This document shows positions 1 to 47,128 of a stretch of 49,343 nucleotides of DNA, piece by piece. The notes below the pieces were generated by a model that had not been told where the DNA came from, did not search any database, and saw only the letters and a list, made by a program, of their open reading frames with translations. Origin of the DNA: a virus; the IMG/VR virus record IMGVR_UViG_3300009425_004611, positions 1 through 49,343 of that record. One strand, 5' to 3'. Made by a program: the position numbers and the translations under genes. Each line of letters starts with the position of its first letter. The stretch's first letter is position 1.

Positions 1-228
1 TCATTTGTCCTCATAGTCTTTAAATTCTTGCCAGCCGCCAATAGATTCGCCATCTACTACAATTTGTGGGAATGTTCTTGCTGTGGGGAATTGTTCAAAT
101 AGTTCTTCTCTGGTGAAGTCTCTATCTAGTTTCTTGTAAGTGTATGTGCTTTCGTTCATTTGTTCTGCTTTGTTTACTGCCATATCGCAAAACGGACAGT
201 TGTCTTTACCAAATATTTCTATAATCAT
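1..228 (-). CDS. grx: Glutaredoxin
   Basis: Small thiol-disulfide oxidoreductase of 75 aa, the usual size of phage glutaredoxins such as T4 NrdC. The redox site CPFC is at residues 11-14, right after the first beta strand. The TFPQIVVDG segment (about 52-60) carries the cis-proline that forms the glutathione site, followed by a GG turn. In T4-like phages such proteins reduce ribonucleotide reductase; no reductase gene is visible here, so the partner is inferred. It is the last gene of the long minus-strand early operon in this window, 10 bp downstream of a conserved unknown gene. Start and stop are both inside the window. Family assignment is confident; substrate is not. Confidence 0.93.
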   Translation of the reverse strand: MIIEIFGKDNCPFCDMAVNKAEQMNESTYTYKKLDRDFTREELFEQFPTARTFPQIVVDGESIGGWQEFKDYEDK

Positions 229-4466: not shown

Positions 4467-5387
4467 TTATTTTCCTATTGCATTTCCGTAAATATGTACA
4501 TGCACTCGGCTTGTATAGTTGTAGCCACGTTGTATTGCTTCGTCGGCTATGGTGGCTTCTGTTTGTATTAGACCTTCGAACGTTCCACCTACGCCCATAA
4601 TCCACACAGGGAAATTGCATCCTGCTTCTCGAAATAGTTTAGTGTTCTCTTCTACTTCTCTCCAACTCTCTTCTGATCCGTTTACTACGAACTTTAGTTG
4701 TCCGTGATTACTAACTTCTGCATACTTGCCTACTATCTCTGGGCATATTGCTTTACTATGTTTCTCTCCAGCAGTACTCCATAACTTAGGACTTACACTC
4801 CAAAACCATTCTGGCGTACCTAATGAGTCTGGAATCATTCCACCGTATTCATCTGTAGCATAAAATCTACTTGATATAAACTCTTCTAAGTCTGGTGTTA
4901 CTGCTCTAGTACCATTTGTTTCTACTGTAACGTGAGTGTTATTCATCTTACGTCTAGCAAACTCTTCCAACACACTAATCATACCAGGTTGCGACTTCTT
5001 AATCATAGGCTCGCCTCCTGTAAATACCATGTGTGTTTTGTTTTGTGTTGCAGGATGTATAAAGTTACCGTGCGGTAGGTGAGCCTGTAGTTCGTCTACA
5101 GCCTCCTCTACCGTCTTATCGGTAATAAGGTGCTTAAAGCGTTTGCTCCAAGTGTAACTACTGTCACAGCCCTTATCAAAAACTGGTAAATCAAACACGT
5201 TGTCGATGTTTGTTAAATCAATTGTTTCGTACGGTAACTCATAAGTGCTAGGGTCAGTCGGATCTTTCTGTCCAAAGCCATTGCACTGAAGATTACATAA
5301 GAAGAAACGCATCCACAAACTAGGAATGCCTACATAGGAGCCTTCGCCTTGTGCTGAGTAAAACGTTTCACTATACTTTAGAGTCAT
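4467..5387 (-). CDS. queE: QueE-like 7-carboxy-7-deazaguanine synthase (radical SAM)
   Basis: Radical-SAM enzyme that converts 6-carboxytetrahydropterin to 7-carboxy-7-deazaguanine on the preQ0 route. Visible are YSAQGEGSYVG (residues 10-20), the GGEP motif (124-127) that binds SAM, VETNGT, and WSVSPKL near the middle. The 4Fe-4S cysteines are unusual: C31 and C35 fit a CxxxC pair, and the third (C74, in KGCDSSYTW, matching the usual WCDT) comes only after 38 intervening residues. At 306 aa it is longer than the usual 210-250. It overlaps the DUF433 gene by 17 bp and shares the operon with folE and the queD-like gene. Confidence 0.88.
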   Translation of the reverse strand: MTLKYSETFYSAQGEGSYVGIPSLWMRFFLCNLQCNGFGQKDPTDPSTYELPYETIDLTNIDNVFDLPVFDKGCDSSYTWSKRFKHLITDKTVEEAVDELQAHLPHGNFIHPATQNKTHMVFTGGEPMIKKSQPGMISVLEEFARRKMNNTHVTVETNGTRAVTPDLEEFISSRFYATDEYGGMIPDSLGTPEWFWSVSPKLWSTAGEKHSKAICPEIVGKYAEVSNHGQLKFVVNGSEESWREVEENTKLFREAGCNFPVWIMGVGGTFEGLIQTEATIADEAIQRGYNYTSRVHVHIYGNAIGK

Positions 5388-5910
5388 GTTTTTCCTTCGT
5401 TTCTATATATTCGTCGTAATCCAAATCTTCTTTAGTTTGTTCGTTCTGTTCAAATATTGCCGGCACACTATCAGTTAGTGCAATCTCGACTAATTCAAAC
5501 AAATCGTTATCTAAATCTAAGTCTGCTTCTTTGTGTATTAGGATCTCTAGGCAACTAATCCTTAGTCCGTTATTCATACATGTAGCAAAGTTGCTAGTAC
5601 GTCTGTAATAACGTCTGCCTAGCTCTACAAGTTTAATGAACACTACTTGATTAATGTTGCTTACTTCTAATACAATCTCTTCTCCACCTACATTAACTAA
5701 TGTAAGTAACTGTTCTAATGCTTGGTTAGTAGGGATAGCAGTATTAAGAGCATAAAACTCTAATGCTTCAAACACATCTTCCATAGCAAGTGTAGGATAT
5801 AATCTTAATACTTCTGCTACGCTCTTACCTGTGCCAACACTTTCGCATATAGCACTTACTGGTACGAGTCCTTTTGAAACTATATAGCCTTTCTTCCTAC
5901 GTTCTATCAT
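5371..5910 (-). CDS. DUF433-like protein with C-terminal extension
   Basis: A 179-aa protein. Residues about 8-55 (YIVSKGLVPVSAICESV, then GKSVAEVLRLYPTLAMED and EALEFYA) match the DUF433/VapB-antitoxin-like winged helix, in which a G-x-S-x-x-E...YP pattern precedes a helix. DUF433 proteins are normally about 75 aa and DNA binding. The extra 120 residues are helical and end in a strongly acidic tail with a KEKHD end. It sits between folE and queE and overlaps queE by 17 bp, so it may regulate this pathway or be a structural adaptor. Family assignment is by pattern, function is open. Confidence 0.6.
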   Translation of the reverse strand: MIERRKKGYIVSKGLVPVSAICESVGTGKSVAEVLRLYPTLAMEDVFEALEFYALNTAIPTNQALEQLLTLVNVGGEEIVLEVSNINQVVFIKLVELGRRYYRRTSNFATCMNNGLRISCLEILIHKEADLDLDNDLFELVEIALTDSVPAIFEQNEQTKEDLDYDEYIETKEKHDSKV

Positions 5911-5912
5911 AC

Positions 5913-6602
5913 TTAACCTCTGCCATTAGCAAATGACTGCTGTAGTTTAATATTATCCATAAATTCTTGTTGTACCTTTGCCTCTTCTTTGAAGTTGCCT
6001 TTAAGTACTGTAGTCTGTGTAAGACTACTATGTGCCATAATGCCTCTATTCTCACAACAACCATGTGTGGCTTGTATGTAAACGCCAACGTTCTCTGAGC
6101 CTGTTGCTCTTTGAATCTCTCTAGCAATATCATTAGCAAGTTCTTCTTGTAATGTTCCACGCCTTGCACACCATTGTGCGATACGAGTATACTTGCTTAA
6201 TCCAATTAGAGTCTCACCGGCAATTACACCAATGTATGCTACGCCTGATACTGGCTGGTGATGATGTGAGCAAACACTTTTAAGTTCACTACGCACAACC
6301 AACATGCCTTCGTATCTATCTTCTGTTACATTAGGAAATGCTGTTGCATTAGGCATAGGCTCGTACCTACCTGCCATTAGTTCTTTGATATACATTTTAG
6401 CAAGACGCCTACCAGTTTCCATACTGTTAGGATCGTTCTCAATATCAATAACTAGACTTTCTAATACTGATTCAAACTTAGGTGTAAGCTCATTGATGAG
6501 TGCTTCTGTATCACCTTCTTCCATGTACTTACTAATGTTACTACCAGCCCAAAACTTGCCACCGTCTTGTAAGATACGTTGTTTTATTGTGTCACTAATC
6601 AT
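5913..6602 (-). CDS. folE: GTP cyclohydrolase I
   Basis: Converts GTP to 7,8-dihydroneopterin triphosphate, the first step of both folate and queuosine/preQ0 synthesis. Zinc ligands fit C111 and H114 in SVCSHHHQP and C182 in the ATHGCCENRG block; E. coli FolE uses C110, H113 and C181. The core LSKYTRIAQWCARRGTLQEE and the C-terminal SSLTQTT are typical. Length is 229 aa, as in bacteria (about 220). It is 2 bp upstream of the DUF433-like gene and close to queE, which points to 7-deazaguanine synthesis rather than folate. Confidence 0.96.
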   Translation of the reverse strand: MISDTIKQRILQDGGKFWAGSNISKYMEEGDTEALINELTPKFESVLESLVIDIENDPNSMETGRRLAKMYIKELMAGRYEPMPNATAFPNVTEDRYEGMLVVRSELKSVCSHHHQPVSGVAYIGVIAGETLIGLSKYTRIAQWCARRGTLQEELANDIAREIQRATGSENVGVYIQATHGCCENRGIMAHSSLTQTTVLKGNFKEEAKVQQEFMDNIKLQQSFANGRG

Positions 6603-6810
6603 TGCTATTTATTTCCTCTAATGCCATAATGCTAATCATTTCTTCTAATGATGCTATCTCTCTTTTAAGTTCTAGCTTTTCTAATTTCTCTGAGTGGACT
6701 GTTTGGTCATCTACATGTAAGTCGTAATCATCTGATATTTGTTTATCCATTACCCTATGTTTATCTTTAAGGGTAACTAAATGGTTACGCAGACTTACTA
6801 ATGAACTCAT
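6595..6810 (-). CDS. Small coiled-coil protein, DUF465-like
   Basis: A 71-aa helical protein. The pattern LKDKHRVMDKQI early on, then LEKLELKREIASLEEMI, recalls the short DUF465 (YdcH-type) family, a small antiparallel helical hairpin. It overlaps folE by 8 bp and the upstream gene by 26 bp. Function of that family is poorly known; the similarity here is by eye only. Confidence 0.6.
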   Translation of the reverse strand: MSSLVSLRNHLVTLKDKHRVMDKQISDDYDLHVDDQTVHSEKLEKLELKREIASLEEMISIMALEEINSND

Positions 6811-7003
6811 TATCCTCTCCTAATATGCCGTTGGACCAATTCTCTGCCACATCATTTGCATAATGTATGCTCTTATCTCGGACATTAATTGTGCCAAAGA
6901 GTGTATCCTGCTTAAATAAATGAACTATAAATCCGTTGTCATCTACTATTTCTGCTGTTTTTTCTGTCATCTCGTCATGTTCTCCTGTAAATCCACCGCA
7001 CAT
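6785..7003 (-). CDS. Hypothetical protein (72 aa)
   Basis: Starts at the ATG that overlaps the stop of the phosphoribosyltransferase gene as TAATG, giving 72 aa (MCGGFTGEHDEMTEK...). A longer frame from 7039 exists but would run far into the upstream gene. The sequence shows beta-strand-like segments (GFIVHLFKQDTLFGTINVRD). No family recognised. Confidence 0.6.
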   Translation of the reverse strand: MCGGFTGEHDEMTEKTAEIVDDNGFIVHLFKQDTLFGTINVRDKSIHYANDVAENWSNGILGEDNEFISKSA

Positions 7004-7467
7004 TATTTCCACCACTCCTCGTATGGGAATACTATCCAATCTTTGTCTGTATCGTAGCCAACTTCCTTTGCAGTATAGTCAACTTTCTTACCAAAATTAC
7101 TGGATAACTTATCATATATTGTACAGTACTTAGGTGCTATTGTCAAGCTATTTTCAGTAACTACATTATCTATCATGTTTAATGTTTCACCACTGTCGTT
7201 AAGGTCATCACATATTAAAATGTTCTTGAACTTGTATTTAGACAAAATGTGTGTTAGGGCAGGAAAATCTGCGATAACATGGTCTCTTAATGCTAAGTTA
7301 AAGCCTTCAAACGGTACACCAAAGTAATGACTGAGCATTACTCCCATGATATATCCGCCTCTACCAGGCCCAACAATAACATCAGGCTTATAATCATCGA
7401 CTGCCATTTGTTGGCATATAGTTGCTACGTTGCTGTTAAGTTCTTCCCAAGAGTGATAGTACTTCAT
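7003..7467 (-). CDS. Phosphoribosyltransferase-like protein
   Basis: Type I PRTase fold of 154 aa. The PRPP loop is ILICDDLNDSGETL (about 91-104), with two Asp before the D-S-G-E-T phosphate loop. DVIVGPGRGGYIMGVMLSHYFGV (about 32-54) is the usual pyrophosphate-loop strand and helix. Size and order fit hypoxanthine/xanthine-type PRTases, used in purine salvage or, in phages, in NAD or queuine-related steps. ATG at 7467 is preferred over the TTG at 7476. The exact base is not visible from sequence. It is coupled to groES just upstream. Confidence 0.82.
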   Translation of the reverse strand: MKYYHSWEELNSNVATICQQMAVDDYKPDVIVGPGRGGYIMGVMLSHYFGVPFEGFNLALRDHVIADFPALTHILSKYKFKNILICDDLNDSGETLNMIDNVVTENSLTIAPKYCTIYDKLSSNFGKKVDYTAKEVGYDTDKDWIVFPYEEWWK

Positions 7468-7468
7468 G

Positions 7469-7750
7469 TTATTCAATTACACCAAACACATCAGACTCGG
7501 ATAGTATAATAAACTCTTCGCCATCAATTTCAATCTTGTCTCCATTGTTTGGTCCAAAGATAATCTTATCGCCTACTTGACATTCAAGCGGGATAACAAT
7601 ATCTAACTTACTTTTCTTACCTGGTCCTACTGCTATGACTTCGCCTTCTGCAGGCTTATCTTTAGCAACACTAGTTAGTATAATACCACCTGACGTTTTA
7701 GCCATGCTTTTTTTACGCTTCACTAATAGTTTATCGTGTAATGGTTGCAT
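7469..7750 (-). CDS. groES: Co-chaperonin GroES
   Basis: A 93-aa GroES-family protein. It opens with MQPLHDKLLVKRKK, contains the mobile-loop motif TSGGIILTSVA that docks to GroEL, then GEVIAVGPG and the VGDKIIFGPNNG beta-barrel core, and ends FGVIE. Normal GroES is about 95 aa. T4 and other phages carry their own co-chaperonin (gp31) because the capsid protein needs a larger cavity; here the protein is of the bacterial type rather than gp31-like. It presumably works with host GroEL, as no GroEL gene is in the window. Confidence 0.95.
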   Translation of the reverse strand: MQPLHDKLLVKRKKSMAKTSGGIILTSVAKDKPAEGEVIAVGPGKKSKLDIVIPLECQVGDKIIFGPNNGDKIEIDGEEFIILSESDVFGVIE

Positions 7751-10478: not shown

Positions 10479-10676
10479 TTATACAATATTAGTTGCTTGT
10501 GGGCCTTTCGGTCCTTCTTCGACATCGTATGATACTTTTTGATTCTCATCAAGTGAAGCATACCCGTCTGTTTTTATAGCTGAAAAATGTGCGAACACAT
10601 CCTTTCCACCGTCGTCAGGTGTAATAAATCCAAAACCTTTAGATGTATTAAACCATTTTACTGTTCCATTTGCCAT
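10479..10676 (-). CDS. csp: Cold-shock-domain protein
   Basis: A 65-aa CspA-type protein: [15 protein letters not shown] (RNP1 at KGFGFI) and [10 protein letters not shown] (RNP2, VFAHF) form the nucleic-acid face of the five-strand barrel, and the protein ends [14 protein letters not shown]. It binds single-stranded RNA or DNA and is often used as an RNA chaperone. It lies between the outer-membrane-like gene and the queD-like gene, and its leader has a hairpin at 10694-10735. Confidence 0.96.
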
Positions 10677-14212: not shown

Positions 14213-15748
14213 TTATAACTCCGATGCTAGGTTTGTTAGCGAGTCTTCCATCATTTGATCAAACTCTCCTTCCACTTGTTGCTCTACTTCTTCATCGAAG
14301 AAAGAACTAGTAGGTGAGGAGTTGAATGCCGTGTCTGCATCTTTGTGTTTATTATTACTAACATCATCTAAGAACAGTTTAGCATCGTCTAATAGTTTGT
14401 GAGGATCATCACTAGTGAATAGTTCTTTAACAAATGTATCAAACATCAACATATTTCTAGGTGTGTATAAACTTTCTTGATTAAGTTTCTTACCTTTCTT
14501 CTGCCAGTTTCTCCAATCTAGTTGGTAGTTCTCGCATTCTAATGTTGCTAGGCTGTTTGCTTCTTGTACTGCTCTAATATGCATGTATACATTGTGAGAC
14601 ATCAGTAAACCGTATGTGAAACTATCCCATGAAGTCTTACCTTCCTTGTGGATCTTGTTCAGCATACCCGGAGCATACCAATTAACATCACCAGTAACTA
14701 GCCTGCTACCAATCTCACTCTCCCAAGGGAAAGGATTGTTAGACAAGTTGCCAGGTGAGTGATGACTGAATGCTTTGTTATCAAAACACTTCTCCATAAT
14801 GTAACTCATCTGATTACTAGTAACTTTGTTTCTAGTGTATACTAAACCGTTCGCACTACTAATGTATGGACTAGCACAATCAAAACTAACTGTGATGTTA
14901 GGGTTAACATGTTCTCTTAACTGTCGCTGTATGCTTGTAAGCATTACACCCCATTCAAGTTTACTAGTACCCAGGAAATGAATCCAATCTCGGTCTTGTA
15001 ACTTCTCATCATCACGCAAAGTAATGATACGTTTCAGTGCCATGTGCATGTCGCGGATATTGTTACCACCCATGCCCCATCCTTCAGTGGGATAGTCTTT
15101 AACTTTTTGATACCATTCTTCTGCATCGTCCCAGTATGTTCCTTGTAATACATTAAGGAACTTTGTGTGTCCTTGTCTGTGATCCATAAACCAATCTAAG
15201 TTATATGTAGTACACTTCAAGCATTCGTCAAAGTTCTGTAGTCCAGTCTTCTCTTTAAAGCCAGGCTTACATGCCCAACTCGGAACATCAAATGTCATAC
15301 TCCAGTCTGCTGTGTGTTCTAACCAGTTGAGGATCTTACCTCTAACTTTATCAGCATCACCTTTGTATCCAACATCGCCGGGCTTCTCGAAGAAGTTTTC
15401 CCAGTCAAACTTAATAACACCTTTACCAATCTGGAAACCACCGGAGTCGCCTACAATAGTTGTGTTATCTCTGTCTCTGCATTGAATAATGTGTTCCATG
15501 ACCTTGCTCTTCTCAATATCGAGATATGCATGACCGGCACTATAAAGTGCTTTGTTATAATAGTAATAGCCTTTCTCTTTATCCAGGAAGTTCATGCCTT
15601 CGAAGCCATGTTCAAATCCATTCGGGACTCTGCCTTCAGGGATATATCCAGGCACACTCTTACATCTGCCTAGTAGCTCTGTCATAAAGCCGCTCACCGC
15701 AGGTAAAAATGTTGCATAGTCACTATGCGTCTTGGATAAATCTCTCAT
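14213..15748 (-). CDS. dpdA: DpdA-like DNA guanine transglycosylase (TGT family)
   Basis: A 511-aa protein of the tRNA-guanine transglycosylase superfamily. VGDSGGFQIG (Asp101, 100-108) matches the TGT DSGGFQ site for the base; FLNVLQGTYWDDAEEWYQ and GWGMGGNN fit the VQGG and GG-loop region; TVSFDCASPY (Asp290) is the place of the nucleophile (DCVLP in TGT). The Cys cluster for structural zinc found in tRNA enzymes is not visible. Such phage DpdA proteins insert 7-deazaguanines into DNA to avoid restriction. It is 2 bp downstream of the clamp and shares its operon. The last 90 residues are acidic and probably disordered. Confidence 0.86.
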   Translation of the reverse strand: MRDLSKTHSDYATFLPAVSGFMTELLGRCKSVPGYIPEGRVPNGFEHGFEGMNFLDKEKGYYYYNKALYSAGHAYLDIEKSKVMEHIIQCRDRDNTTIVGDSGGFQIGKGVIKFDWENFFEKPGDVGYKGDADKVRGKILNWLEHTADWSMTFDVPSWACKPGFKEKTGLQNFDECLKCTTYNLDWFMDHRQGHTKFLNVLQGTYWDDAEEWYQKVKDYPTEGWGMGGNNIRDMHMALKRIITLRDDEKLQDRDWIHFLGTSKLEWGVMLTSIQRQLREHVNPNITVSFDCASPYISSANGLVYTRNKVTSNQMSYIMEKCFDNKAFSHHSPGNLSNNPFPWESEIGSRLVTGDVNWYAPGMLNKIHKEGKTSWDSFTYGLLMSHNVYMHIRAVQEANSLATLECENYQLDWRNWQKKGKKLNQESLYTPRNMLMFDTFVKELFTSDDPHKLLDDAKLFLDDVSNNKHKDADTAFNSSPTSSFFDEEVEQQVEGEFDQMMEDSLTNLASEL

Positions 15749-30834: not shown

Positions 30835-32169
30835 TTATTTCTCATCTCTGTCGTATGGTACTGTTATGCCGAAAGGTGCAACGGGAGTGTTGCCTCCATA
30901 GCCTCCACCGTGTACAATAAACAATGTATCACAGTAGTTTTCATCACCCCAACTATCCCAAGGATAGCCATCTGTGAACATTACAAACTTCTTAGGTACA
31001 ATACCTTCTTCCTTGAACCAGTTGAAACAACATTCAAAGTCTGTACCTCCGCCTCCGCCTGGCTCGTATTCCATAAACTCTTCCATGTTATGCTCAGTGA
31101 ACACTTGTGGATTGTGTACTTCAGTATCAAAGCAGAACAAGTGTATACGGAAATCACTGTATTGATCCATCACACCTTTTGTTTCGCTAAGGATATCTCT
31201 AAGCATTTCATCGCTCATTGATCCTGATGTATCTATACCAACTGCAATATCAATAGTTTCTTCTCTGTCCATACCTGGCAACCAAATGCCACTGTCCATT
31301 CCTTTACGTGAACATTGATTGTAACTGTAGTCACTTCTCATTACACTTTGAATTTGCTGTGGTAGTAACTCTTTCCAACTTAGTTGCGGATTAATTAAGT
31401 CATCTACAAGACGCTTAACACCACTTGGTAAGTTGCCAGCACCAGCCGAACGTGCCGCCTGTACTGTAGCATTCTTAAATGATTCTTTAATAGAACGCTT
31501 TTCTTCTTCAGTGTAACGTACTGGGCCTTTGGTGCCGTCATTAACGTTACCTTCTTGACCTTGTCCACTACCTTCGTCTTCACCATCTTCCATATCTAAG
31601 TGAACATCTAATGTAGTTCCATCCTGGAAGTCTTTACCGTCCTCTTCCATTTGCTTAAACAAGTCAGCATATACTTCTTCAGAAGTCCATTTGCGGTACT
31701 TGTAATCAAACAGTATCTCAACCAATGTAATCTTCTCACCAACATTACCTTCTACTAGATCCATGTTTACTACATAGTCATTAGCAATGTTCCAAAGCAT
31801 AGGGTTACGATCGCCTCGTCTACCAAAGTGATCGTAAACACAATGCTCTACTTCGTGTCCCCAAAGGAACACTAAGTTTGGAATAGTTAGTGCTGATATA
31901 AAGTCTTTGTTATAGTAGAAGTACTTGCCATCTGTTGCGGCTGTTGGACACCATTCACTAGCGTCTTTGAATTCTAAACGACATGCTAAGTTTCCGTAGA
32001 ACGGACATTGCAGTAACATGTTAATACGAGTTGAAATAAGTCTATCTTCAACTTCTTTATCTGTGAGTTTGGACTCAGGAATACTAGCAATAGCCTTGTG
32101 AGCTGTATCACTTGGTGTGCCTGTTATCTTTGGTCCTTTCACTTCTAATGTATCTGTTTTAAATGACAT
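30835..32169 (-). CDS. HExxH metallopeptidase-like / VWA-domain protein
   Basis: A 444-aa protein. The N-terminal half has FLWGHEVEHCVYDHFGRRGD (H105-E-V-E-H109), as in the DUF2201/metallopeptidase-like family; residues about 195-230 are acidic and low complexity. The C-terminal half is a VWA-like domain with the MIDAS motif DIAVGIDTSGSMSDE and a later MFTDGYP. It is transcribed separately from its MoxR partner, from the promoter at 32205-32233. VWA/MoxR pairs are known to assemble or remodel metal- or protein-containing complexes; here the target is unknown. Confidence 0.86.
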   Translation of the reverse strand: MSFKTDTLEVKGPKITGTPSDTAHKAIASIPESKLTDKEVEDRLISTRINMLLQCPFYGNLACRLEFKDASEWCPTAATDGKYFYYNKDFISALTIPNLVFLWGHEVEHCVYDHFGRRGDRNPMLWNIANDYVVNMDLVEGNVGEKITLVEILFDYKYRKWTSEEVYADLFKQMEEDGKDFQDGTTLDVHLDMEDGEDEGSGQGQEGNVNDGTKGPVRYTEEEKRSIKESFKNATVQAARSAGAGNLPSGVKRLVDDLINPQLSWKELLPQQIQSVMRSDYSYNQCSRKGMDSGIWLPGMDREETIDIAVGIDTSGSMSDEMLRDILSETKGVMDQYSDFRIHLFCFDTEVHNPQVFTEHNMEEFMEYEPGGGGGTDFECCFNWFKEEGIVPKKFVMFTDGYPWDSWGDENYCDTLFIVHGGGYGGNTPVAPFGITVPYDRDEK

Positions 32170-32204
32170 AAAAACCTCCTACAATTTCTACTTAATATAC
32201 AACT

Positions 32205-32233
32205 ATTATACTACCAATGTACCCTATAGTCAA
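32205..32233 (-). promoter_or_regulatory. Sigma70 promoter for the VWA operon
   Basis: Minus strand: TTGACT (32228-32233), 17-bp spacer, TATAAT (32205-32210); leader of about 30 bases with TAGGAGG before ATG 32169. The 23-bp stretch 32191-32213 is identical to 25751-25773 in the other promoter. A terminator lies immediately upstream. Confidence 0.85.
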
Positions 32234-32243
32234 CCTTTTAATC

Positions 32244-32271
32244 AAAAAAAACCCCGCCTTGTGAGCAGGGT
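32244..32271 (-). terminator. Rho-independent terminator of the MoxR transcript
   Basis: Minus strand stem ACCCTGC / GCGGGGT (32265-32271 with 32251-32257; one G-U pair) with a 7-base loop, followed by a T8 run (32244-32251). It is downstream of the MoxR gene and a conserved-looking hairpin region, and 10 bp before the VWA promoter. Confidence 0.88.
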
Positions 32272-32282
32272 AAAACTTTTTG

Positions 32283-32349
32283 CTGTTAGGTTGTAGGAGT
32301 AACTTACGGTACGAGTATAACCAAGTACCGTTGTAGGATACAGCAACAG
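32283..32349 (-). ncRNA. Structured 3' element between MoxR stop and terminator
   Basis: A 67-base region with a perfect 7-bp hairpin (ACGGTAC 32306-32312 with GTACCGT 32325-32331, 12-base loop), flanked by two copies of a 9-base direct repeat (GTTGTAGGA at 32290-32298 and 32330-32338) and closed by CTGTT/AACAG (32283-32287 with 32345-32349). On the minus strand it follows an A8 run. It lies within a 3' UTR of 90 bases. It could be a small RNA or an mRNA-stability element; no known RNA family recognised. Confidence 0.45.
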
Positions 32350-32360
32350 TTTTTTTTGTC

Positions 32361-33455
32361 CTATGCCGCCTGAGGGAACAAGTACTTCCAGTACCTTTCC
32401 TTAAACTCCTTTTTACCTTGAAGTTTTCTAGGCTTAATATCAATGTCGTGGTCACTAAGAACACTCTTAGCACTAAAGATAACTAACTCTGGTTCAAAGT
32501 TCTCCATTATAAAGTCAAAGAAGTAATCAACACCTTTGTCAAATGCCGCTTCGTCGTCCGCTTTATTAAGAGCGGCTAGTTCGTAGCATAAACCAATTGC
32601 GAATGAGTACTGAGCTGACTTCTCTTTTACCTTAAGCGTCTTAACTTTACCAGTTAATACATCTTCTGGGTTAGGTAGCTTTGAAGCAACCTTTCTATGT
32701 TCACAAAACTTAATAGCCATGCCTTCTCCAACTGCTCCAGCAATTTCTGCCTTCTGCTCAAAGTCAGGAGCAAACTCAAACCCTTCAGTTTCTAGTATTT
32801 CGCTTACGAAAGACCAACTACGTGGTGTAGCAAATGACTGACTTGATGTCTTAGGATCAAAGTCAAATAAATCTGCTTTACTATATGTTAAGTACCCAAC
32901 AACATCTTGGTGTATCTTGTTATTAACAGCCCAAACACTCCAATCTTCGAAGTTAATGTCCATGTTAATATGACGGAATCTGTTTGCTAACGGACTAGGC
33001 ATTCTATAAGTAACACCTCTGTCAGTCTCTCTGTTACCAGCCGCTACAATTCTTACATTGCTTGGCATCTCATATTGACCAATTCGACCATTGAGGACTA
33101 ACTGGTATGCCGCCGCTTGTACACTTGGAGGAGCTGAGTTCAACTCATCTAAGAACAATACAATCATGTCGTACATTTCTGACTGTTCCATAGATGGAAG
33201 GTCTGCCGGTGGCGCCCACTCCATTTGATTTGTTTCTGCATTACGGAACGGATAACCTCTAAGGTCAGTTGGCTCCATCAATGCTAGACGCATATCAATC
33301 ATTAAATTATTACCAGGCATGTCCTTTACAATGCCTTCAATTAGTTCAGATTTACCAATTCCTGGTGCTCCCCACATGAATATTGGTCTCTTTGCCAAAA
33401 AGGCTCTGTTTACAATGTTCTTTGTCTGACTGGGTCTTACTGTTAATGTGTCCAT
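32361..33455 (-). CDS. MoxR-type AAA+ ATPase (CobS-like)
   Basis: A 364-aa ATPase. Walker A is GAPGIGKS (29-36); MIVLFLDELNSAPP is Walker B; then NVRIVAAGNRETDRGVTYRMPSPLANRFRHIN is the sensor/arginine-finger block of MoxR/CobS-type proteins. In T4-like marine phages such genes are often annotated cobS. It is monocistronic, with its own promoter (33503-33531) and terminator (32244-32271). It likely works with the VWA protein directly downstream. Confidence 0.9.
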   Translation of the reverse strand: MDTLTVRPSQTKNIVNRAFLAKRPIFMWGAPGIGKSELIEGIVKDMPGNNLMIDMRLALMEPTDLRGYPFRNAETNQMEWAPPADLPSMEQSEMYDMIVLFLDELNSAPPSVQAAAYQLVLNGRIGQYEMPSNVRIVAAGNRETDRGVTYRMPSPLANRFRHINMDINFEDWSVWAVNNKIHQDVVGYLTYSKADLFDFDPKTSSQSFATPRSWSFVSEILETEGFEFAPDFEQKAEIAGAVGEGMAIKFCEHRKVASKLPNPEDVLTGKVKTLKVKEKSAQYSFAIGLCYELAALNKADDEAAFDKGVDYFFDFIMENFEPELVIFSAKSVLSDHDIDIKPRKLQGKKEFKERYWKYLFPQAA

Positions 33456-43155: not shown

Positions 43156-43851
43156 TTACAGGTTTTTCTCTACTAATGCTTTAGAGATATGTAGCCTTGC
43201 ATCAGGGTGTTTAAGTTTAACAAACATCTTAATGTCATCTATATGCTTACTGTCGCAATAAAAGTAATTCCATCGGCTATCTCTATACTTATCTACAATG
43301 TCTTTACAAGTATCTTTAACACCGGATCGTATTTGTTCTCTGTGTTTATGTATGTTGGGTCGCCGTCCGTACCCAGTGTTACCATACTGTCGTGTGGTAT
43401 ACTTGCCGTTGCCAAAAACTCGCGTCATTCCAACTTCTACTTTTAAATCGTATTCTGTATGCCACAGTTTGTTTCTAATAACAAGTTCAACGTCTCCATG
43501 AAAATGATAGTGCTTCTTATTATCAATCATGTTCTGATTAACTTGCTGTAAGAATACTACATGCTGTTGCGATACAGGTCCTTTAATTTCATTTACTTGG
43601 TCTGCAAACATATCAACAAAGAAATCTAAGTCTTTCTTATGTTTAAAATAAAAATGTCTTGTAAGGTTGCTTACAAACTTTACGTTTTCTTTTCCGGTAA
43701 ACTCCCACCAATCTAGCATTTCTAATGCTCGAGTGACATCGTATGAAACGTTTGTATCTATGAGTGCAACCTTATAAGGATACTGTTTATAATATATTCT
43801 GTCTGAGCCTATTATTGTAGGGAAGTAATCATCACGTGACAACTCTTCCAT
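43156..43851 (-). CDS. Hypothetical protein
   Basis: A 231-aa soluble protein (ATG 43851), rich in Tyr, His and Lys: YYKQYPYKVALIDTNVSYDV, LTRHFYFKHKKDLDFFVDM, NKKHYHFHGDVELVIRNKLW and a basic YTTRQYGNTGYGRRPNIHKH. A GTG at 43893 would lengthen it by 14 residues but overlaps the ClpA gene. No family recognised. Placed between ClpA and structural genes, it may be a virion or assembly protein. Confidence 0.62.
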   Translation of the reverse strand: MEELSRDDYFPTIIGSDRIYYKQYPYKVALIDTNVSYDVTRALEMLDWWEFTGKENVKFVSNLTRHFYFKHKKDLDFFVDMFADQVNEIKGPVSQQHVVFLQQVNQNMIDNKKHYHFHGDVELVIRNKLWHTEYDLKVEVGMTRVFGNGKYTTRQYGNTGYGRRPNIHKHREQIRSGVKDTCKDIVDKYRDSRWNYFYCDSKHIDDIKMFVKLKHPDARLHISKALVEKNL

Positions 43852-43864
43852 ACCATTATATATA

Positions 43865-46048
43865 TCACGCAGGCTGGATGTCAATCTCTTCACCTTTAAC
43901 AGTTACATTTAAAACGACATCTTTTAATTCTTCAAATAATATTTTTTTACTTAATGGCTTTTTGAGATCCTTTTCAAATAATCTCTTCAACGGTCTAGCA
44001 CCCATATCCGGGCTGTACCCATTTTCCATAAAGTATTTAATAGCCTTAGTATCAAGTACAACTTCAATATTCTTGTCCTTAAGTTGTACGTTAATCTCAT
44101 CTTGTAGTCTGCCTACAATCTTTTCAATAACAGGCTTGCCTAGTTTGTTAAACTTAATAACTGCATCTAGTCTGTTTCTAAACTCCGGAGCAAAGAATGC
44201 CTTAATTGCTTTAGTGTCAGTATCTTTTTTAACTTGGTCACCAAAACCAATTTTATTAGTCTCGCCGTCTGCGGCTCCTAAGTTGCTAGTCATTAGCATA
44301 ATAACATTACTGAAGTCTGTAGTCTTACCAGTTGCTCCTGTTAGTCTGCCATCGTCCATAACTTGTAGTAATAGTTGTAGCACTTCAGGTGCGGCTTTCT
44401 CAACCTCATCTAATAGTAGTACACAATTAGGATTCTCTTCTACTGAAGTAAGTAGTTGTCCTTGTCCCATCTTTCCTTCTGCGTGTCCAACGTATCCTGG
44501 AGGAGCACCAATTAACTTACTTACACTATGACGTTCTTGATACTCACTCATATCAAAACGTATTAGTTTTGCTTCTAGTTGTGCCGCTAGTTGTTTTGCT
44601 GTTTCAGTTTTACCTGTGCCAGTTGGTCCTACCAGTAAGAACGATCCAATTGGCTGTCCTTCTTCTCTAAGTCCTGCTTTAGCAACAAGTATGGCTTCTA
44701 CAATTTGGTCTATTGCTTCGTCTTGTCCAAATACCTTAGTTTTAATACGTTTGTCTAAACTCTTGTAACCTTCTGTACTATCAACGTCAATAACGTCTGC
44801 ACCAATCTTACTCATTTTACTAATAACATGTACAATGTCTGGTGTATTAACAACCTCTTCTCCACGAAGTTTAACTGTGGCTCCGGCGGCATCCATTACA
44901 TCTACTGCTTTGTCTGGGAAGAACTTGTTTTTAATATAACGGTCTGCTAAGTCTACACTTTTTGCAACTAGCTCATCAGTATAAGTAACACCGTGGAACT
45001 CTTCAAAGAAAGGCTTTAACCCTTTCATAATTTCAATAGTCGTAGGAACGTCTGTGGGCTCGATGTCCACACGTTGGAACCTACGCAATAGTGCTTTATC
45101 CTTTTCAAAATGTGTGCTGTATTCATCATTAGTTGTAGCACCCATTGTTAATAGTTTACCTCTACCTAGTAGTGGCTTTAACAAGTTAGCAACGTCTACG
45201 TTACTACTGCCAGCACTTCCGGCACCCATAATCATGTGTATCTCATCAATGAACAAAATGACATTCTTGTCTGCTTCTAAACTATCTAAGACAACTTTAA
45301 TACGTTCCTCAAAGTCTCCTCTATATTTTGTGCCAGCAAGTAAACTACCAATATCTAAACTGTAAACAACTTTGTCTTTGAGTGCATTAGGTACTTGTCC
45401 TTCTACAATCTTTAATGCTAGTCCTTCTGCAATAGCAGTCTTACCGACGCCTGGCTCACCAATTAGTAATGGGTTGTTCTTTTTACGTCTTGCTAAAATA
45501 TGTACAACGTCACTTACTTCTTCATGCCTGCCAATCAATGGATCAATTTCCATCTCAGCCGCTTTGGCATTTAAGTTGGTAAGGAATTCTTCAGCCTCTT
45601 TAAGTCCAGCATTGCCATTCATAGCCGTAAGTACTTGTACAACACTCAGTCTATCAATACCATTAAGCTCACATATATATTTGGCATGTGTATCGTTCTC
45701 TGAAAGGATACTAACAAATAAATCTATGCTACTAACTTGATCCCTAGAACTAAAAATTACTTGGGCAAATGCTCTTTGCATTACACGTTCAACGCCTTCT
45801 GTTTTCTTAGGCTTCCCATCGTATACAATTTCGCCTTTCAATCCGTTAACGCCATCATCGGCAAGGTAATTAACTAAATCCGACTTTGCTAACTCCATAT
45901 CGAGTTGGTCATCAATTTCGTGTAGTACGTCTAGTACATCATCGTCTTCCAGGCAACATAGCATTAAGTGTTCTAACGTTACATATTCATGGTTACGTTC
46001 TGATGCGTAATTTACTGCACATGTTATAATATTATCTAATTGGCTCAT
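43865..46048 (-). CDS. clpA: ClpA-type AAA+ unfoldase
   Basis: A 727-aa protein (E. coli ClpA 758). N-domain 1-140, then AAA-1 with GEPGVGKT (197-204) and the FIDEIH Walker B; AAA-2 with GPTGTGKT (474-481), LLDEVEKA, and SNL sensor. There is no ClpB-type middle coiled coil, so it is a ClpA/C-like unfoldase rather than a disaggregase. The IGF tripeptide at 600-602 (NKIGFGD) sits where ClpA has IGL, the ClpP-docking loop. It could pair with host ClpP. DnaJ is 8 bp upstream. Confidence 0.94.
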
Positions 46049-46056
46049 ACTACTAT

Positions 46057-46845
46057 TTACATCTCCTGGTCATAAAATTCTTTTATTTTTCGTAATTGTT
46101 CATCACTAATGCTTGGTGCAACAACATGAACATTTACATACATATCTCCTTTCCTGCCATTTTGTGGGTTTGGCATACCCTTACCGCTAAGTCGTAGTCT
46201 CGAACCAGGACTAGTTTTAGCTGGAACTTTAACACTTAATGTTGCCCCATCTAAATGAGGGAACCTAACTTCTGTACCAATCATGGCTTCGAAGAAATCT
46301 ATCTCTACTCTCACAATTAACGAATCGTCTACTCTATCCCAATCGCTTGGCATGTGAACAAATGTTCTACATATTAAATCACCTGGAGGTAATTGTTTAT
46401 TCTGGTGTGGGCCTTTTCCTTGCATCTTAAACTTACTGCCGTGTCGTGTACCGGCTGGTATAGTTAGTTTATACTTTGCATAGCCCACGTCTATTAGTTT
46501 TTCAGCACCAGTGTACGCTTCTTGCAAATCAATGTGTATATCGCACACACCATCTGGGTTACGAGATTGTTGTTGCCTGCGTTGTCCAAATATATCGCCA
46601 AATATATCACCAAATGGATTACCTTGCCCTTGGAAAGGATTTTGTCCACCGAATGGATCTGGATTGTCGTACTGCTGTTTCTTTTGTGGGTCGCTTAATA
46701 CTTCGTATGCGGCTTGGATCTTTTTAAACTCAGCTTCGTCACCGCCTTTATCCGGATGATGTTTACTAGCCAATTTCTTGTAGGCTTTCTTTATCTCATC
46801 TGGTTGAGTCGTATGGTTAACGCCAAGAGTTTCATAATAGTCCAT
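46057..46845 (-). CDS. dnaJ: DnaJ/CbpA-type J-domain co-chaperone
   Basis: A 262-aa type II J-protein. J-domain: [20 protein letters not shown] with HHPDKGG (HPD at about 31-33), then a Gly/Phe-rich region ([12 protein letters not shown]) and two C-terminal beta domains ([16 protein letters not shown] and [19 protein letters not shown]). No zinc-finger CxxCxGxG is present, as in CbpA. It stimulates host DnaK. ATG at 46845 is 7 bases from the -10, so translation may be leaderless. It is transcribed with clpA. Confidence 0.95.
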
Positions 46846-46851
46846 AGTGGT

Positions 46852-46881
46852 ATTATACACTAGAAGAACCGCCTAAGTCAA
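46852..46881 (-). promoter_or_regulatory. Sigma70 promoter for dnaJ/clpA, leaderless type
   Basis: Minus strand: TTGACT (46876-46881), 18-bp spacer, TATAAT (46852-46857). The ATG of dnaJ begins 7 bases after the -10. Confidence 0.75.
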
Positions 46882-46897: not shown

Positions 46898-47128
46898 TTA
46901 AGAATTTTCGTCTATGAATGAGATTACTTGTGGAATCGTCAGAAGCTCATCAACAATATCGTCTGGAATTTCAATATCAAACTCTTCTTCCATCTCTAAG
47001 ATCATTTCAATAGCATCTAAGCTATCAAAGTTTAAATCGTTGAATAAGTGTGAGTCTTCTTTAATTTTGTCTAGATCAATACTAAGATGTAGATTAATTA
47101 ATCGCTGTAGTCTTTCAAATGTTGTCAT
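46898..47128 (-). CDS. acpP: Acyl carrier protein
   Basis: A 76-aa acidic four-helix protein. LNFDSLDAIEMILEMEEEFD contains the DSL site, whose Ser (about residue 35) carries 4'-phosphopantetheine; IEIPDD and a final helix follow. It matches bacterial AcpP (78 aa) closely in layout. No acyltransferase or ketosynthase is nearby, so it may divert or carry host acyl groups, or act as a partner protein. Transcription is probably from further upstream with the spanin genes. Confidence 0.92.
   Translation of the reverse strand: MTTFERLQRLINLHLSIDLDKIKEDSHLFNDLNFDSLDAIEMILEMEEEFDIEIPDDIVDELLTIPQVISFIDENS

Follow-up and report, generated by a model that had tools for sequence, protein, structure and literature searches.

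A ClpA-type unfoldase encoded beside DnaJ in a jumbo-phage fragment, the probable motor of a phage-encoded ClpAP(S) protease

Architecture of the dnaJ-clpA locus

The window, by which we mean the whole stretch of DNA analysed, measures 49,343 bases and is a piece of a virus genome. The DNA polymerase that it encodes comes nearest to those of Phosso, Vibrio 2.275.O, Atu_ph07, SCTP-2 and K64-1, all of them jumbo phages (40-46% identity). An intact clpA reading frame, with exactly the limits given in Table 1, lies directly behind dnaJ. The pair is flanked on one side by genes for an acyl carrier protein (ACP), an Rz-like spanin and a head or virion protein, and on the other by large tail-fibre-like genes. 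The ACP gene (46898-47128), of phage type, is directly upstream of dnaJ. An ORF at 43156-43893 overlaps the 3' end of clpA by 29 nt and shows ~32% identity in two relatives (L003 and L004). It was rejected as a candidate adaptor, because its predicted fold is not credible (pLDDT 35) and it matches no family.

Table 1. Positions of the features discussed in the window
Feature	Position	Strand	Basis or remark
clpA	43865..46048	-	727 aa, two AAA+ modules; TIGR02639 830 bits; phrog_4871 791 bits
ClpA N-domain, residues 1-142	45623..46048	-	identity to ClpA N-domains and phmmer match to 1k6k
IGF ClpP-docking tripeptide, residues 600-602	44243..44251	-	[IV]GF in 80/80 viral relatives
dnaJ, ATG at 46845	46057..46845	-	PF00226 (J domain) and PF01556 (C-terminal domain)
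sigma70-type promoter, TTGACT-18-TATAAT	46852..46881	-	6 nt before the dnaJ ATG
GroES	7469-7750		33-36 kb from clpA (range for GroES and Csp)
Csp	10479-10676		33-36 kb from clpA (range for GroES and Csp)

Pfam finds two AAA+ modules, an AAA lid and a D2-small domain in the protein. At the level of sequence the motor is intact: Walker A (residues 197 and 474) and Walker B (264 and 544) are preserved in both modules, and the pore loops (KYR at 241, GYVG at 518), the Arg-finger regions (320 and 621) and sensor-2 (683) can all be located. The NCBIfam ClpA model gives a single continuous alignment (3-710 to 4-726 of 734). With the ClpB model the alignment breaks into two pieces, implying that the middle domain of ClpB is absent. 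A preliminary description of this DNA had proposed two complete AAA modules lacking that domain, and both the motifs and the model alignments agree with it. ClpA ranks top in NCBIfam with a score under the equivalog cut-off of 993 bits, and in PHROGs the protein belongs to a known phage family, phrog_4871 (aligned over 4-724 of 727). Judged by these scores, it is a phage-specific ClpA-type protein and is not classed with the orthologues of bacterial ClpA.

A Clp-type N-domain is present: by phmmer, residues 6-140 match the N-domain of ClpA in structure 1k6k. Its identity is 26% to the N-domain of E. coli ClpA and 43-61% to those of three members of its own clade (L014, L005 and L003). An AlphaFold model of the whole protein, built from 32 homologues, has a mean pLDDT of 83, and its best matches among solved structures are ClpC-ClpP, ClpA, and ClpA from ClpAP-ClpS complexes.

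The D2 loop carries an IGF tripeptide, as had been described earlier. Its first position is I or V and its GF is invariant in every viral relative compared, in the midst of a loop that is otherwise variable, which argues that the motif is not there by chance. It sits at the same place as the IGL loop of E. coli ClpA, residues 610-628 (PMC9663308). Residues 597-605 are the low-confidence, flexible part of the model (pLDDT below 50), as expected for an IGL/IGF loop that is modelled without ClpP.

The domain order, both ATPase sites, the KYR and GYVG pore loops and the place of the docking loop are shared with the ClpA of E. coli ClpAPS, and identity reaches 53% in D1 and 47% in D2. The differences lie in the divergent N-domain and in IGF instead of IGL. 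The gene context also departs from that of bacterial clpA, in that clpS is not adjacent and dnaJ is linked.

Predicted transcription with dnaJ

Only 8 nt separate the end of dnaJ (46057) from the clpA ATG, and of the 70 viral loci with more than 1.2 kb of sequence before clpA, 59 have a DnaJ-like ORF there. The domain search gave no match to a Zn-finger domain in the window DnaJ. The promoter before dnaJ is conserved as well: all 12 phages of the clade have TTGAC[AT]-16..18-TATAAT with no more than one mismatch, and between its end and the dnaJ ATG lie 5-8 nt. Its score was equalled by only 23 of 3000 random 60-nt pieces of the window (0.8%). The region before clpA itself holds nothing comparable in the clade loci; for several of them the reference point in this control was the start of the BLAST match, a few codons inside clpA. 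The earlier proposal that clpA shares one transcript with dnaJ is thus well supported by the spacing and the conserved promoter. If transcription starts ~7 nt beyond the -10 box, the predicted dnaJ-clpA mRNA would have no leader (a leaderless mRNA). The preliminary description also listed GroES and Csp; both are in the window, but lie far from this transcript (Table 1) and are not part of it.

Across the window, 14 sigma70-type promoters with at most one mismatch were counted against 2.4 expected, so the phage appears, by this count, to use host sigma70. Near-consensus promoters fall mostly on the minus strand (e.g. 33531, 32233, 28897, 25793, 16562 and 11906), and several have GG before TTGAC[AT]-N17-TATAAT. 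The T4-type late promoter TATAAATA was discarded, its count being no more than chance and none lying near clpA. In Phosso (L286, 1033-4795) a peptide deformylase gene stands between dnaJ and clpA; as a regular partner it was dismissed, since only 6 of 26 related records have one.

The linkage raises the question of whether ClpA and DnaJ act purely as chaperones, remodelling or disaggregating phage proteins, for instance in tail-fibre or head assembly, without proteolysis. Like the ClpB/Hsp104 disaggregases that act with DnaJ and DnaK, the window protein belongs to the Hsp100 family and is encoded beside DnaJ, and the adjacent dnaJ-clpA genes are surrounded by genes for virion structure, spanin and tail fibres in the window and lie near structural or tail-fibre genes in PA5oct and Atu_ph07. 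However, the middle domain that such machines use with DnaK is missing, a ClpP-docking loop is present and strictly conserved, and a DnaK of the phage's own is absent from 23 of 24 relatives' records. A pure chaperone role therefore seems quite unlikely.

ClpP and ClpS in related phages

The window contains neither clpP nor clpS, but no more than 3.3 kb of it lie upstream of clpA, and the missing clpP therefore says nothing about the genome. Over ~45 kb, the window runs collinear with a contig of 109,775 bases (G055) at 90-95% nucleotide identity, and the ClpA of that contig is 98% identical. G055 has a clpP of its own, on the same strand as clpA and ~18 kb upstream, and a clpS still further upstream, ~45 kb from clpA. 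Neither gene is adjacent to clpA, which weighs against the reading of one protease, and their co-expression with clpA is at most putative.

The linkage of clpP and clpA was followed from both sides. Selection for a ClpP of 72% identity or more gave 31 contigs. In 19 of them clpA follows clpP on the same strand, at a distance of 11.3-21.1 kb; the other 12 all end before 18.2 kb, and no contig that extends further lacks clpA. Conversely, 14 contigs were selected for a ClpA at least 58% identical, of which 6 are too short to tell; the eight that extend over 12 kb upstream all have ClpP, again on the same strand. Of 24 related records, 11 yielded a ClpS; many of the rest are short.

Residue numbers for the ClpP pocket, the catalytic triad and ClpS follow E. 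coli. The G055 ClpS keeps N34, D35, D36, T38 and H66 of the N-degron pocket and E79 and K84 for ClpA binding. Two pocket positions are changed, M40V at the gatekeeper and M62T, and the gatekeeper is V in four of its relatives too. Its score is under the NCBIfam equivalog cut-offs. The idea of an N-degron pathway made self-contained by a phage aminoacyl transferase was considered and dropped, as no Aat was found in 18 records.

The comparison was extended to eight named jumbo phages chosen for having this ClpA family (Atu_ph07, PA5oct, 121Q, GAP32, SCTP-2, Vibrio 2.275.O, Phosso and Munch). All eight encode both a ClpP-family and a ClpS-family protein, the ClpS matches in 121Q and Munch being weak. 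The catalytic triad S97/H122/D171 is kept in all nine phage ClpPs compared.

Prohead proteases do occur among the ClpP-like proteins of phages, and PHROGs places phage ClpP nearest a head-maturation family, which would suit a role of phage ClpAP or ClpP in processing head proteins. The NCBIfam scores point elsewhere, with 307 bits for the G055 ClpP against PRK00277 (above the cut-off) and 107 against the head-maturation model. Moreover, a separate T4-type S77 prohead protease is encoded in 8/8 named phages and in 6 IMG/VR contigs, so ClpP is not the head protease. In a further contig (G004) a clamp loader and a protein of the polymerase family are among the neighbours of ClpP, and capsid genes are not. 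The prohead-protease assignment was ruled out by the scores and the separate S77 enzyme, and we regard a function in virion maturation as very improbable.

Where the ClpA loop is IGF (the window with G055, Atu_ph07, Phosso and PA5oct), ClpP keeps most of the hydrophobic docking pocket. In contrast to this canonical form, the loop reads IGM in 121Q, LGM in GAP32, MNM in Munch, IGV in Vibrio 2.275.O and IGY in SCTP-2, and the ClpP pockets of these phages are altered, for example at F82, which has become S, N, C or M; four of the phages also have G or T in place of L114. Although the comparison covers few independent lineages, 121Q, GAP32 and Munch being related, loops and pockets seem to change together, which is suggestive of phage ClpP as the evolved partner of ClpA. 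The ClpS proteins of 121Q, GAP32 and Munch have largely lost the pocket and K84; their adaptors, to judge from these residues, probably read something else.

These observations bear on the proposal of the preliminary description that the phage ClpA hijacks host ClpP, i.e. that it docks mainly the host enzyme and redirects it to new substrates, any phage ClpP being incidental. The part that holds is the ability to dock a ClpP, for which the IGF loop, the family and the model all speak; [IV]GF is moreover the canonical form that host ClpPs accept, and no ClpP is encoded in the window. The part that fares poorly is the identity of the partner, because every clade contig of sufficient length and all the named phages encode a ClpP of their own, the named phages and relatives encode ClpS too, and loop and pocket diverge together. 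We consider hijacking of host ClpP as the main function unlikely. Since the window clade retains the canonical IGF loop and pocket, its ClpA could nevertheless dock host ClpP in addition.

Discussion

We think it likely that the product of clpA is the unfoldase in a ClpAP protease which the phage itself encodes, most likely one working with a phage ClpS adaptor, and that the window is a fragment of a jumbo myovirus. We infer that ClpA, ClpP and ClpS form a complex, and the genome of the window presumably carries clpP and clpS beyond its end. In such a protease, ClpA hexamers would take substrates via the N-domain; phage ClpS would hand over N-degron proteins, and other unfolded proteins would enter directly. 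Substrates would be threaded through the KYR and GYVG pores and fed, by way of the IGF loop, into the phage's own ClpP, and DnaJ from the same predicted leaderless mRNA may work with host DnaK on folding. The targeted degradation proposed earlier would presumably act on host or phage proteins.

A broader proposal, which we put forward tentatively and consider rather doubtful as a whole, is that a complete and self-contained ClpAPS N-degron protease is general among the jumbo phages of this lineage, and that co-evolution of its docking loop with the ClpP pocket makes it partly orthogonal to that of the host. Since its gatekeeper is altered, the window-clade ClpS may read a different N-degron code, and the protease would remove host or defence proteins on the schedule of the leaderless dnaJ-clpA mRNA.

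Phage ClpA, ClpP and ClpS are already known individually; the Atu_ph07 report names all three and DnaJ in that phage (PMC6102473). In an overview of jumbo phages, ClpP and ClpS figure as separate genes of patchy occurrence, or as alternatives, and phage ClpS is proposed to feed host ClpAP (PMC7824862). We found no experimental study of phage ClpA or ClpP function in the literature. The present comparison finds ClpA, ClpP and ClpS together in the named phages tested and in the closest relatives of the window. Should the three proteins assemble, the phages would come equipped with a regulated protease of their own, and the N-degron pathway would be a tool of phage takeover that is open to test.

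By score the window ClpA is a member of phrog_4871, annotated 'ATP-dependent protease' (Atu_ph07 gp292, PA5oct gp186, 121Q, GAP32). These genomes carry clpP and clpS as well, and dnaJ is directly upstream of clpA in Atu_ph07 and PA5oct as well; identity to the isolates is only about 41-49%. In a tree of 53 sequences, 30 viral ClpAs form one clade (100/99), apart from the 21 sampled bacterial ClpAs. Two MAG contigs, L184 and L192, fall inside the viral clade, and L184 is the closest 'bacterial' match. Recent capture of a host ClpA was rejected, because viral ClpA is an old clade of its own that includes this match. The two contigs, labelled Rickettsiales and Neomarinimicrobiota, have a phage-type dnaJ-clpA and a neighbouring homologue of the window, and are probably misbinned phage contigs.

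Elsewhere in the window, an AAA ATPase recognised by motif (32361-33455) lies beside a DUF2201 metallopeptidase-vWA protein (30835-32169), and the two (30835-33455) resemble the paired MoxR and vWA chaperones that have been described from jumbo phages (PMC7824862). The 4467-7039 region includes a GTP cyclohydrolase I gene (5913-6602) and, identified by eye only, a QueE-like ORF (4467-5387); a possible Tgt/DpdA-like ORF (14213-15748) was likewise assigned by eye only. It is possible that the genes of this region, with the ORF at 14213-15748, serve 7-deazaguanine DNA modification.
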